Assembly (NCBI GenBank): GCA_013141415.1
Contig: JABFQY010000002.1
Span: 186,001 to 250,000, forward strand
Direction of reading: 5' to 3'
Length of the DNA stretch: 64,000 nt
From: Kiritimatiellaceae bacterium
GTDB lineage: Bacteria; Verrucomicrobiota; Kiritimatiellia; Kiritimatiellales; Tichowtungiaceae
Made by a program: the position numbers and the translations under genes. Below, piece after piece: positions 38,256 to 45,746 of this stretch. The notes under the pieces are model-generated. The model saw only the letters and a program-made list of their open reading frames with translations, was not told where the DNA came from and searched no databases. Each line of letters opens with the position of its first letter. Positions within the stretch are counted from its first letter, which is position 1.

Positions 38256-38588
38256 GTGAAAAAATCAGCCCGTTTGATCTGCACGCTCCTTTGGTTCTGC
38301 GCGCCGTTATTTGCGCACGCCGAAAGTCTTGTCGTCGGCAAAGACGAGCAGGGCGTGCAGATACGCATTCTGGCGGTGGATGGCAAGGCCGCCAAAGGAG
38401 CGCCGGTCCGGCTGACGCCGGGCAAGCACCAGCTGGCTGTCTCCTGCATCAAAACGGAATCCTACGGGGCGCTGAGCGTGGACACCACGCTCGTGCTGAC
38501 CGTCAAACCGAACTGCGACTACGAACTGCTGGGCTTTTTCGAAGGAAAGAACGCAAAAGTGGCTGTTAAAGAAAAAGTTGTGCGATAA
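38256..38588 (+). CDS. small secreted protein, unknown
   Basis: 110 residues from a GTG at 38256 with AAGG about nine bases upstream. A signal peptide ('SARLICTLLWFCAPLFAHA') precedes a short beta-rich domain ('VRLTPGKHQLAVSCIKTES', 'DYELLGFFEGKN') that resembles PEGA-like or other small envelope beta domains. It starts 10 bases after the tpx stop, so may be cotranscribed. Family not recognised with certainty. Confidence 0.65.
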   Translation: MKKSARLICTLLWFCAPLFAHAESLVVGKDEQGVQIRILAVDGKAAKGAPVRLTPGKHQLAVSCIKTESYGALSVDTTLVLTVKPNCDYELLGFFEGKNAKVAVKEKVVR

Positions 38589-38660
38589 CACAAAATTAGA
38601 AAAGTCAGGCAGCTGGACTCCAAACGCTCAAAAATTGGAATCGAGTTAATACGGTTAAAA

Positions 38661-38951
38661 ATGGTTAAGAAAAATCTAGAATTGATTTCACGCAATGGAG
38701 CCAGAACGCCGTTTTCTATTGAGATCGGAATTCCGGTCAAGGATGACGGATGTTGGTGTTGTCCTGTCAATATTCCGGGACTCCATGATCTGACCATCAG
38801 AGGAGTTTGTGGGGAAGATGCCGTTCAAAGCCTTTGCCTAGCCATTGGGTTGGTAAAGAAATTATTGACCACTTCAATAGAAACCGGGGCTCGTATTGTT
38901 GAGGTCGGTTCGGATATCGACTGGCCAATGGACGTTATAATGAAAACTTGA
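38661..38951 (+). CDS. DUF6968-like small protein
   Basis: 96 residues. 'FSIEIGIPVKDDGCWCCPVNIPGL' and 'GVCGEDAVQSLCLAIGLVKKLL' resemble the DUF6968 family (dw-C-y-I-Gl and DsvQAL-LAl), cytoplasmic proteins of unknown function often found in accessory regions. Base composition is poorer in GC than the neighbours. It lies next to the duplicated radical SAM fragment and the DUF4143 ATPase, suggesting a small accessory insertion region. Confidence 0.55.
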   Translation: MVKKNLELISRNGARTPFSIEIGIPVKDDGCWCCPVNIPGLHDLTIRGVCGEDAVQSLCLAIGLVKKLLTTSIETGARIVEVGSDIDWPMDVIMKT

Positions 38952-38971: not shown

Positions 38972-39097
38972 CTATCCATCGAACGGCGCGGATTTGTCGA
39001 AGTCTGGCAGGTAGGTTTTCTGGCTCTCAAGAGTTTGGATAAAGGCGTTTTCGAGGCCGAGCTCGAGCGCGTAGTCAGTGATTTCGTCGTATTCCTC
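38972..39097 (-). pseudogene. 3'-end fragment duplicated from the 40328 radical SAM gene
   Basis: 118 bases at 38980-39097 align without gaps to 40333-40450, the last 38 codons of the radical SAM gene at 40328-41248. I count about 13 mismatches. Most are synonymous; the fragment still reads 'EEYDEITDYALELGLENAFI' followed by a C-terminus that differs by Lys/Glu, Ser/Pro and Asp/Glu, and ends in its own stop at 38972. It therefore diverged as coding sequence before landing here and is not a fresh local duplication. The rest of the gene is missing; the ATPase gene begins 6 bases away. Confidence 0.8.
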
Positions 39098-39103
39098 TCC
39101 GCG

Positions 39104-40258
39104 TTATGCCAATCGAGCAGCCAGCAAGGTCGGCGAAATTACGGTGGCGCGTTCGTTGAGCGGATATTCCTGTTCGTCGTCAAGCGGTGCAACGATGTAT
39201 CCCTGTTCCAGCCCCAGATCGTCCAGAGATCTGTAAAATCCCGCGGATGGTTGCGGTGACGCGGATGCTTTGCATTCTACAGCCATTAGCCGATCTCCCC
39301 GCTGGAGAACGAGATCAAGTTCATCGCCCTTGGCTGTTCGATAATAATAAAAATTCCATTGTCCATCTGCCGCGCCCGCGAGTTGCGCGGCGACATAACT
39401 TTCCCAGGAACATCCGTAAACCGGATGTCCGAACAAGCTGTTTCGGTCTTGGATGTTCAGCAGGGCGTGTAGAAGTCCGGTGTCGCGGAAAAGAAGTTTG
39501 GGGCTTTTGACCAAACGTTTTTTTACATTCACAAACCACGGATGAAGCTGCCGGAGCATGTACGTATGTTCCAGAAAATCGATGTAGCGCCGGATGGTCG
39601 GGGCCGAGACCCCAATGGATTCGGCCAGTTTTGCGGCGTTTAACGTCTGTCCATTTGCATGGGCCAGCATCGTCCAAAGCCTGCGCATAGTTGTCTCTGA
39701 CAGAGACGTTTCATACAAACGCAAATCCCGCTCCAAATAGGTTCGGATAAAATTCTGCCTCCAAATCAAGCTGGCCTCATCACTGGTCGCCAGAAAACTA
39801 TCAGGAAATCCACCGCGCAGCCAGTGACGGGATAAATCGCCGGACTTCAGCTCTGAAATCAGGAATGGCGTTAGATCCAGATAGGCGATGCGTCCGGCCA
39901 TGGACTCAGACGACTGTCTCAGTAACTCAGGCGAGGCGGAACCAAGAATCAGAAATCGGCCGGGCGTGCGCTTTTCGTCGCACAAACCGCGCAATATAGG
40001 GAACAGTTCGGGAGCGCGCTGGACTTCATCCAAACAAACCAACCGGTCTTTATTGGCGCGCAAAAAAGATTCAGCATCGTTCAACTTATTGAGATGCGAC
40101 GGGATTTCCAGATCGAGATATACGGCGTCCAAATTCTCAATGACATGACGGGCCAGTGTGGATTTTCCGCACTGCCGCGGACCGAGCACCGCCACGGCCG
40201 GAAACTGTTTAAGCCGATTTTTCAACGCATCCTGTAAAGTGCGGTTGAGGTATTTCAT
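39104..40258 (-). CDS. AAA ATPase with DUF4143 domain
   Basis: 384 residues. Walker A 'VLGPRQCGKSTLARHVI', Walker B-like 'LVCLDEVQRAPELF', 'RFLILGSASPELLRQ', then a helix-turn-helix-like 'NAAKLAESIGVSAPTIRRYIDFLEHTYM' and the C-terminal PD-(D/E)xK-like DUF4143 domain with 'GDELDLVLQ' and 'MAVECKAS'. The family is widespread in mobile or accessory gene sets; function unclear, possibly DNA or stress related. Flanked by a direct repeat made of the neighbouring gene's 3' end (38980-39097 and 40333-40450). Confidence 0.93.
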   Translation of the reverse strand: MKYLNRTLQDALKNRLKQFPAVAVLGPRQCGKSTLARHVIENLDAVYLDLEIPSHLNKLNDAESFLRANKDRLVCLDEVQRAPELFPILRGLCDEKRTPGRFLILGSASPELLRQSSESMAGRIAYLDLTPFLISELKSGDLSRHWLRGGFPDSFLATSDEASLIWRQNFIRTYLERDLRLYETSLSETTMRRLWTMLAHANGQTLNAAKLAESIGVSAPTIRRYIDFLEHTYMLRQLHPWFVNVKKRLVKSPKLLFRDTGLLHALLNIQDRNSLFGHPVYGCSWESYVAAQLAGAADGQWNFYYYRTAKGDELDLVLQRGDRLMAVECKASASPQPSAGFYRSLDDLGLEQGYIVAPLDDEQEYPLNERATVISPTLLAARLA

Positions 40259-40327
40259 GTCCGGAGGCTATCCTTAATTGTCGGGCAGTGCAAATCGAAA
40301 GTTTGATTTTTGATTTGCACCTTTTGT

Positions 40328-41248
40328 TTACTCAAACGGTGCGGGTTTGTCGAAGTCGGGCAGGTAGGTTTCCTGACTTTCCAAGGTTTGGATAAAGGCG
40401 TTTTCGAGGCCGAGTTCGAGCGCGTAGTCGGTGATTTCGTCGTATTCCTCCGCGGTCAGCGGACGGTTCAGTTCCGGAATTCCGCAGGCTTTATACTGCG
40501 GTGAATACTGCGACATGATGCTGACGGATATTTCCTGCGACAGCTCCGCCAGAAACTTTAAGCAGGCTTTGCTGTTTTCAAGCTGGCCCGGCAGAACGAG
40601 GTGGCGGACGAGCAGTCCGCGTTTGGCGACGCCGTCGTCGTCCAGTTCCAGCAGTCCGACCTGATCGAACATTTCGCGCAAAACGTCGGGAATGACGTCG
40701 GCATAATCGGTGGCCGCCGAAAACTTCCGTCCGAGCGCGTTATCCATGTATTTAATATCCGGCAGATAAATATCGACCAGTCCGCGAATCTGCCGGAGTG
40801 CTTCGACGGAGTCGTAGCCGTTGGAGTTGTAAACGACCGGAACGGTAAGTCCTTTTTGCTGAGCCGCTTGAATGGCGTCGGCCATTTGATAAATCATGTG
40901 CGACGGCGAAACGAAGTTAATGTTGTGTGCGCCATCAGATTGAAGCCGGAGCATTTCGTCCGCCAGTTCCGCGCCGGAGAGCTTCCGAACTTTGGAACCT
41001 TCAAACTCCTGACTGAGCTGCCAGTTCTGGCAGAAGACGCAGCGCAGGTTGCATCCGGCAAAGAAAATCGTTCCGGAGCCGCGCGTTCCGGAAATCGGCG
41101 GCTCTTCGCCGAAGTGCAGTCCGGCGTGCGACAGCAGAATGTCGCCGCCGACTTTGCAAAAGCCGGTCTGGCCTGCCCGACGGTTGACGCCGCAGCGGCG
41201 CGGACAGCATTCGCAGCGGTTCAACTGTTCTGAAAAGGTCTGTTTCAC
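40328..41248 (-). CDS. radical SAM protein, PflA-like (COG1313 group)
   Basis: 306 residues from a GTG at 41248; a TTG at 41284 gives a longer N-terminus and is less likely. The N-terminal Cys pairs 'CECCPRRCGVNR' and 'GFCKVG' bind an auxiliary site; the radical SAM motif is 'GCNLRCVFCQNW'. 'NINFVSPSHMIYQM', 'VVYNSNGYDS' and 'DIYLPDIKYMD' follow, as in AmmeMemoRadiSam/PflA-related enzymes; the partner proteins are not nearby. Its 3' end is duplicated beyond the DUF4143 gene. Confidence 0.9.
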   Translation of the reverse strand: MKQTFSEQLNRCECCPRRCGVNRRAGQTGFCKVGGDILLSHAGLHFGEEPPISGTRGSGTIFFAGCNLRCVFCQNWQLSQEFEGSKVRKLSGAELADEMLRLQSDGAHNINFVSPSHMIYQMADAIQAAQQKGLTVPVVYNSNGYDSVEALRQIRGLVDIYLPDIKYMDNALGRKFSAATDYADVIPDVLREMFDQVGLLELDDDGVAKRGLLVRHLVLPGQLENSKACLKFLAELSQEISVSIMSQYSPQYKACGIPELNRPLTAEEYDEITDYALELGLENAFIQTLESQETYLPDFDKPAPFE

Positions 41249-44483: not shown

Positions 44484-45746
44484 GTGTCGTTAACTGCGTC
44501 TGGACGCCGCTCGGCATACTTCATCCATTCCGACGAACTCGGCAACGTCATCGCGGTATCGGATTCTTCCGGCAACATCGTCAAACAAACCTGCTACGGC
44601 CCGTACGGCGATGTCTGGTCCCAAACCGGCAGCTTCGACACCCCGTGGGGCTTCGGCGGAGCCTACGGCGTTTATACCGACCCCGACGTCGAACTCCTCC
44701 GGATGCAGGCGCGCTACTACTCCCCGGAAATGAAACGCTTCATCTCCGCCGACCCCACCGGCCTCAAAGGCGGCGTCAACTTCTACACCTACGCCGACGG
44801 CAACCCCCTCAACAGCATCGACCCCGAAGGCCTCTGCGCCCGGCCCTCGCTCTTTGGAAGAACTTCGCTCTTCGGCAGCGGTGGTACGTCCTCATTTGGT
44901 GGATTTGGGCCGGTCGGATCCTCCTATTCCTCCTTTGGGCGCACCTCCTACGGCAGCCCCTTCGGCTTGGGATCGCCACAAACCCGTTACGCGCAAAGCT
45001 CCCGAAGCTATCAGATGTTTGACGACGCCCGCAATAAGTGGGATTCAGGACACCGCTGGTCTGCGGTCGGGTCTGCGGCAAGAGAAACATTTGGACGGAT
45101 CAGCGGCTTTGATCAGGTCAATGCGGCGGGCAGCGGCTACGACACCTATGCGGGAAACCGCCTCAGCGCCGGACAGCGCCTTTCTGCCGGAGTCAGCGGC
45201 GGACTTTCCGTCGGCCTCTGGGCCGCCGGAAGTGTCGGCACTATCGGACGGGGCGCAAGCGCCACGGCGGGAACCATTTCCCGCAGCGAAGTTGCCGCAG
45301 AGAGTAGTGGCCTAAACTGGGTTACGGAGATTCCGAAAGGATCGAGGCCTCCAGTTACCTACATGTCCTTGGCTGAGAGGAAATCGCATGCAGCTCTGTT
45401 TCAAGGTGGTGCCGTACGAATTGGTCCTTCAAAACCGGTTGGCACTATTGGTCGGACGGAAACATGGGTATTTCCGCGCAGCGTTGTTGACAATCTGACG
45501 AAACAAGCTGGCGGTGATGTGGCAAAACTTGAGAGGCTTATTGGGCTTGATGCTGGCTATTTAGGTAAATCGCCAGTATTGGTTGATATTCCATCTCCGA
45601 AAGGTGTTCGAATTCCTTCGGGAAATGAACGCGGCGCCAACGCTTTTTGGCGAGCTGGCGGGCGAACAAGCGGAGGCCTACCCGAGGCGATTATCGATCC
45701 GGTGCCAGAAGGTTCCTATACAACCCGACCAGTATTTTGGAAATGA
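44484..45746 (+). CDS. orphan RHS C-terminal tip with a putative toxin domain (5'-truncated)
   Basis: 420 residues. It begins in the middle of an RHS core: 'YFIHSDELGNVIAVSDSSGNIV', 'ARYYSPEMKRFISADPTGLKGG' and 'NFYTYADGNPLNSIDPEGL' are the conserved end of the RHS-repeat-associated core. Then comes a Ser/Gly-rich linker and a C-terminal domain from about residue 295 with 'VVDNLTKQAGGDVAKLERLIGLDAGYLG', 'GVRIPSGNERGANAFW' and 'TSGGLPEAIIDPVPEGSY' (split), which I recognise as a polymorphic-toxin tip but cannot name. The rest of the RHS protein is missing; the 44355-44483 stretch has no coding continuation. Probably an unexpressed toxin cassette or silent orphan tip. Confidence 0.8.
   Translation: MSLTASGRRSAYFIHSDELGNVIAVSDSSGNIVKQTCYGPYGDVWSQTGSFDTPWGFGGAYGVYTDPDVELLRMQARYYSPEMKRFISADPTGLKGGVNFYTYADGNPLNSIDPEGLCARPSLFGRTSLFGSGGTSSFGGFGPVGSSYSSFGRTSYGSPFGLGSPQTRYAQSSRSYQMFDDARNKWDSGHRWSAVGSAARETFGRISGFDQVNAAGSGYDTYAGNRLSAGQRLSAGVSGGLSVGLWAAGSVGTIGRGASATAGTISRSEVAAESSGLNWVTEIPKGSRPPVTYMSLAERKSHAALFQGGAVRIGPSKPVGTIGRTETWVFPRSVVDNLTKQAGGDVAKLERLIGLDAGYLGKSPVLVDIPSPKGVRIPSGNERGANAFWRAGGRTSGGLPEAIIDPVPEGSYTTRPVFWK

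Follow-up and report, generated by a model that had tools for sequence, protein, structure and literature searches.

A DUF4143 ATPase gene between two copies of a neighbouring gene's 3' end in a Kiritimatiellaceae genome, and the recurrence of such repeats in the class

How did an ATPase gene come to stand between two copies of the 3' end of its neighbour? The question is raised by a 64,000-nucleotide (nt) stretch of a Kiritimatiellaceae bacterium (contig JABFQY010000002.1, positions 186,001 to 250,000), called here the window, which belongs to a metagenome-assembled genome (MAG) of 2.2 Mb that was available as assembled sequence without reads. A repeat search of the window located a direct repeat of 119 nt, 90% identical and gapless, whose copies bracket a DUF4143 ATPase gene and whose sequence is the 3' end of the adjacent radical SAM gene, referred to as amrS-like (Table 1). 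By self-BLAST no repeat of 50 nt or more in the window was stronger (E = 8e-40), and genome-wide its sequence occurred at two sites only, both in the window. A preliminary description, made from the letters alone, had reported such a gapless repeat beyond the ATPase gene, with mostly synonymous differences and an in-frame stop of its own, and all of this was borne out. We propose, at about an even chance, that the ATPase gene was gained as a cassette at the amrS 3' end by homology-facilitated illegitimate recombination (HFIR) with DNA of a related bacterium.

Origin of the outer gene end

The outer copy of the repeat, hereafter the relic, contains no in-frame ATG, GTG or TTG and ends in its own in-frame TAG; it begins 6 nt past the ATPase stop codon and in frame with that stop. 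Comparison with the intact tail over 39 codons revealed 10 nt changes that fall in synonymous codons and 2 in non-synonymous ones; the changes private to the relic were all synonymous (4/4; P 0.0015-0.006, about 0.003, under neutrality). Because the differences are mostly synonymous, the relic must stem from a working allele, and most of its separate history was therefore passed in a working gene. Judged by its codons, the relic is the tail of a different functional allele rather than a decayed local duplicate. The intact tail was closest to that of the congener G005 (94% at the nt level); the relic was an outlier, with 87-90% identity to the intact tail, G005 and the congener G004, and a donor was not found.

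These data bear directly on the simplest explanation, a duplication of the gene end in place (slippage or unequal exchange) and subsequent drift. Such an event would leave a direct repeat nearby and on the same strand, as is found here, but the changes in the relic are synonymous, the ATPase gene sits between the copies, and the recurrence described below is specific to the DUF4143/PDC-S01 family. Duplication with drift was rejected on the synonymous substitution pattern, and we consider local duplication as a whole very improbable.

Under HFIR, the cassette would consist of the ATPase gene and its upstream palindrome, a one-gene accessory unit of about 1.3 kb. Incoming DNA from a related bacterium, carrying its own amrS-like gene end together with the cassette, would pair through that end with the resident amrS-like gene and recombine homologously, and the other end would join illegitimately, a few bases past the ATPase stop, within the tail of the resident gene. 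The host gene would thus stay whole with the tail of one allele, and the tail of the other allele would remain behind the ATPase gene, followed by the genes that lie downstream of it in that allele (DUF6968 and a hisH remnant). HFIR predicts one homologous and one non-homologous junction, with the donor's allele on one side of the cargo and the recipient's on the other, and the allele-type divergence of the copies fits. The data establish the repeat, its source in a functional allele, the varying presence of the ATPase in congeners and a recurrence above that of the controls; the recombination route, the identity of the resident copy and any part of the ATPase-nuclease in its own gain are inferred. 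From the synonymous divergence of the flanking genes compared, it was not clear which side had been imported.

Recurrence around DUF4143 genes

The flanks of DUF4143 genes in the class Kiritimatiellia were compared twice, first for 48 genes and then, with wider flanks, for a largely overlapping set of 59, so that the two comparisons do not count as independent replicates. Direct flanking repeats were found at 19 of the 48 genes and, at a threshold of at least 40 nt and E<1e-8, at 18 of the 59, compared with 3 of 121 other open reading frames (ORFs) from the same loci (Fisher p 1.5e-7). None of 298 mismatched flank pairs had a direct repeat, and none of the 59 genes had an inverted one. Placement was tight for 16 of these 18 genes, the upstream copy ending 56-248 nt before the start codon, a gap that holds promoter and palindrome, and the downstream copy beginning 6-112 nt past the stop. 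Ten of the 18 repeats were site-unique; with these alone, p is 7e-5 when only tightly spaced controls are counted (1/121) and 9e-4 when every control is (3/121).

At least seven cases are clear examples of a repeated gene end (the window, L253, L257, L258, L261, L270 and L279): the repeat corresponds to the 3' terminus of an adjoining gene, which was left whole in all seven. According to their translations, which were read without family searches, the target genes were amrS, an ArsM-like methyltransferase, polA and LarC, upstream and in sense, and beta-phosphoglucomutase, ribF and one gene of unknown kind, downstream and antisense. The gene-end duplication is therefore not unique to the window and recurs around DUF4143/PDC-S01 genes in the class. 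Since about a third of the class relatives carry similar repeats, these results suggest an unrecognised spreading route for these genes, and because the same architecture recurs, the family appears to have been gained repeatedly with duplication of a gene end.

The repeats of different DUF4143 genes ranged from 41 to 234 nt in length, were 80-98% identical and matched different target genes, and this variation indicates that there is no element-specific attachment site. An integrase element using the gene 3' end as attB was rejected, since the repeats of the relatives differ in gene and length and no recombinase lies between or next to the repeats, in line with the preliminary description, which saw no integrase. 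Its proposal of an incoming homologous gene end held as far as the second functional allele, the intact host gene and the added ATPase are concerned, and was not supported for integration of the integrase-att type.

Coding comparisons of the repeat copies are short. The pairs of the window, L253 and L279 differed mostly at synonymous positions (synonymous to non-synonymous 10:2, 13:2 and 5:0; pooled 28:4, P 2e-8 even at an expectation of 0.39), and because of this pattern their allele-like copies fit gain by HFIR. Several results weigh against that reading. The pairs of L258 (4:16) and L270 (2:8) look like neutral decay, those of L257 (1:1, the copies being nearly identical) and L261 (9:8) are uninformative or mixed, and all seven pooled (44:37) are only weakly above the expectation of 0.39 (p 0.004), so the three clear allele-like cases may be untypical. 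For eight of the 18 genes, dispersed intergenic sequence or a second copy far away is involved, none of 10 plasmid-borne homologues had a flank repeat of at least 40 nt, and neither a donor genome nor a fully sequenced empty site was found among the genomes compared. Moreover, HFIR alone accounts neither for the enrichment in the PDC-S01/DUF4143 family nor for the close spacing of the downstream copy in those 16 of 18 cases.

Part of this evidence speaks for active insertion with a long target duplication, in which the ATPase-nuclease or a trans-acting enzyme would nick the target 50-230 nt apart, the cassette would enter there with duplication of the gene end, and the outer copy would then decay. 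Repeats that are direct only, a compact unit closely spaced on both sides, the intact Walker and PD-(D/E)XK motifs of the protein, the seemingly neutral decay of the L258 and L270 relics and the near identity of the L257 copies are all consistent with it, and in the window a long direct target repeat does stand on both sides of the ATPase gene. Copies identical at insertion with a neutral outer copy afterwards were, however, not what the window, L253 and L279 displayed, their 28:4 ratio being unlike that of a neutral outer copy, although other family members differ; repeat length varies as well. We judge this explanation unlikely; like HFIR, it does not yet account for a joint so close behind the ATPase gene or for the enrichment of the family.

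Insertion of restriction-modification (RM) genes with long target duplication (Nobusato et al. 2000 and Furuta et al. 2010, via PMC3874152 and PMC1643837) is a precedent and the closest known phenomenon. The likeness lies in a defence-type unit that has no transposase and is flanked by direct target repeats of the order of 100 bp at varied sites. The present case differs in that one ATPase-nuclease gene takes the place of the RM pair, the repeats are often the 3' ends of adjacent genes, and in several cases the copies have diverged like alleles of two lineages. A bolder, more novel and rather unlikely proposal is that PDC-S01/DUF4143 ATPase-nucleases might be selfish one-gene mobile elements that insert with their operator palindrome at gene 3' ends and duplicate the end so that the host gene survives, the 'defence' label then reflecting mobility.

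The cassette and the hisH-hisA slot

Table 1. Features of the window around the duplicated gene end
Feature	Position	Strand	Basis and remarks
Small conserved ORF ('VVGKDEQ')	38259..38588	+	Directly after hisH in G008 and G012
hisH 3'-end relic (12 codons), far end of the block	38598..38634	+	84% over 37 nt to G008 hisH; E 1.5e-6 against window
DUF6968 gene, part of the relic-carrying block	38661..38951	+	Pfam 3e-11; low G+C, 45%
Repeat copy R2, relic: 3' end of another amrS-like allele; own stop, no start	38979..39097	-	Repeat search, codon comparison
AAA_14 + DUF4143 ATPase/PD-(D/E)XK protein (PADLOC PDC-S01), putative insertion cargo	39104..40258	-	Profile searches
Palindrome GTGCAAATC-N15-GATTTGCAC, between amrS-like and ATPase genes	40288..40320		33 nt; common to closest ATPase relatives
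Intact AmmeMemoRadiSam-like radical SAM gene ('amrS-like'), target gene	40328..41248	-	Pfam Radical_SAM 1.5e-10
R1, repeat copy forming the intact amrS-like 3' end	40332..40450	-	Repeat search; closest to G005

The ATPase contains both domains that mark the PDC-S01/DUF4143 proteins, the AAA_14 P-loop domain (1e-26, 93.9 bits; cut-off 27) and the DUF4143 domain (3.7e-46, 157 bits; cut-off 28.1), and it matched the PADLOC PDC-S01 model with 6.5e-95. R28, G31, K32, T34, D77, D315 and E328 were invariant and K330 nearly invariant across 31 homologues, and both the Walker motifs and the PD-(D/E)XK motif, the latter in the C-terminal half, are intact. The AlphaFold model was confident (pLDDT 92), with the archaeal AAA+ ATPases 2QEN and 2FNA among its best Foldseek matches (TM ~0.5). 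On these profile matches the protein is assigned to PDC-S01, a suspected phage-defence family, with a candidate antiviral role. A phage or virus origin was rejected, as a search of viral contigs returned no relative there.

The palindrome upstream of the ATPase gene is probably its operator/promoter region. It is exact in G004; in G012 and G050, whose flanking genes differ considerably, a related form precedes the genes of the closest ATPase relatives. Palindromes stood just upstream of 15 of 59 DUF4143 genes versus 5 of 153 other ORFs. In many DUF4143 genes, such as those of the window, L230 and L245, the start codon is closely preceded by a palindrome whose sequence is particular to the gene, which suggests a putative autoregulation through the helix-turn-helix (HTH) part of the protein.

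The name amrS is uncertain, because the NCBIfam model TIGR04337 matched the target gene product (E 1e-9) far under the family cut-off. The gene is 85-90% identical to its counterparts in G004 and G005. Its product has 60-72% identity to proteins of Chloroflexi, KSB1 and Bacteroidales and about 44% to those of other Kiritimatiellia, and on these identities the gene was probably acquired laterally by the genus.

G004, G005, G008 and G013 were among the congeners compared with the window's own genome, G000. The order in G004 is amrS-palindrome-ATPase, as in the window, and its contig stops inside the ATPase gene. Between G000 and G004 the ATPase is 97% identical in amino acids and 87-88% in nt, and the amrS-like gene 85% and 84%. 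The ATPase is thus strongly conserved and, since its DNA is no more alike than that of the neighbouring genes, the amrS-ATPase pairing is old and its gain not necessarily recent; a recent transfer between G004 and G000 was ruled out on the same ground. In G005, amrS is present and the 62 nt after its stop, all that the contig holds, contain neither palindrome nor ATPase gene. The search for an empty site in close relatives that the preliminary description had recommended thus revealed variable presence of the ATPase, within the limits of these contigs; of the two outcomes that it had named as refuting it, relatives that all share the window's arrangement and a fragment that is an unrelated conserved repeat, neither was seen.

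Full-length amrS was not found in most other congeners searched. G008 lacks the gene and retains a decayed tail only, near the VVGKDEQ ORF (L062, G008:C19, 11375-11481). This tail and the window relic share their starting codon, E267, to within about 5 nt. Common ancestry of the two remnants is unlikely, as the G008 tail is 84% identical to the intact tail and 78% to the relic, and the histories of the two remnants differ. A 28-nt match in G008 C7 was a chance match within another gene, and a tail-only match in G078 sits at a contig end.

No gene separates hisH from hisA in most of the genus; elsewhere amrS, the VVGKDEQ ORF or a TPR gene lies between them. The gap is an accessory-gene slot, empty in several species and occupied by the VVGKDEQ ORF and/or amrS in others, and in G013 it is filled by the TPR gene (L204 12866-14317). 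In the window the relic continues into the DUF6968 gene and then into the hisH remnant, itself synonymously diverged. This remnant lies directly behind the VVGKDEQ ORF, and a complete hisH is on another contig (G000:C5). The relic, DUF6968 gene and hisH remnant are an alternative version of the hisH...amrS slot, and because of this continuity and the accessory nature of the hisH-hisA gap, two alleles of one slot are each represented in part in the window. The slot between conserved genes, here hisH and hisA, recalls the minimal mobile elements of Neisseria, where alternative accessory genes are swapped between conserved genes; those elements are not known to leave duplicated gene ends.

The outer block allows two further explanations to be weighed. 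A small circle of gene tail and cassette, excised elsewhere between direct repeats and integrated by a single crossover, would yield exactly the order gene-cassette-tail and would leave the donor's allele on one flank and the recipient's on the other, and direct repeats of 80-98% identity would permit the excision. Neither circle nor excision product was seen, though, and the foreign-looking DNA outside the relic (DUF6968, hisH remnant) would demand a further event, which leaves this route improbable. Alternatively, with the ATPase gene already beside amrS, a foreign fragment of about 500 bp (hisH tail, DUF6968, amrS tail) might have entered between the VVGKDEQ ORF and the ATPase gene, which converge, the repeat being a by-product. 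The block is indeed contiguous and lies exactly between two intact convergent genes, and G004 presents the amrS-ATPase pairing as an older one; yet two illegitimate joints and the coincidence of a piece from the same slot would be required, and the gene-end repeats at other DUF4143 genes would be left unaccounted for. We regard this insertion as quite improbable.

Elsewhere in the window, a gene directly behind fusA (44484-45746) encodes an RHS-repeat-like protein (reading ...RMQARYYSPEMKRFISADPTGLKGGVNFYTYADGNPLNSIDPEG...).

Relation to known systems and significance

HFIR that leaves displaced gene 3' ends behind has already been put forward for type VI secretion system (T6SS) and Rhs loci of Vibrio (PMC5361080), and T6SS effector/immunity arrays and rhs (PMC5361080, PMC3240628) are close parallels. 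The resemblance is that a homologous gene serves as the anchor, with new cargo following and an old gene end left past the cargo. The anchor there is the polymorphic effector itself, whereas here unrelated housekeeping and accessory genes anchor one recurring cargo family.

According to PMC12988326, PDC-S01 ranks fourth in frequency among the (candidate) defence genes of prokaryotes, and for most PDCs experimental validation was reported as pending (Payne et al. preprint, cited in PMC12988326). Its description agrees with the present gene: an AAA+ ATPase fused to a PD-(D/E)XK domain, encoded by a single gene and spread across lineages. In the open-access literature searched, nothing was found on flanking gene-end duplications at PDC-S01, so that an earlier report is possible, and its mode of spread was not addressed there.

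The recurring duplicated gene ends offer a way to find recent PDC-S01 insertions, their donors and their empty sites, and a single-gene system makes it testable whether, as has long been asked, defence genes move by themselves.
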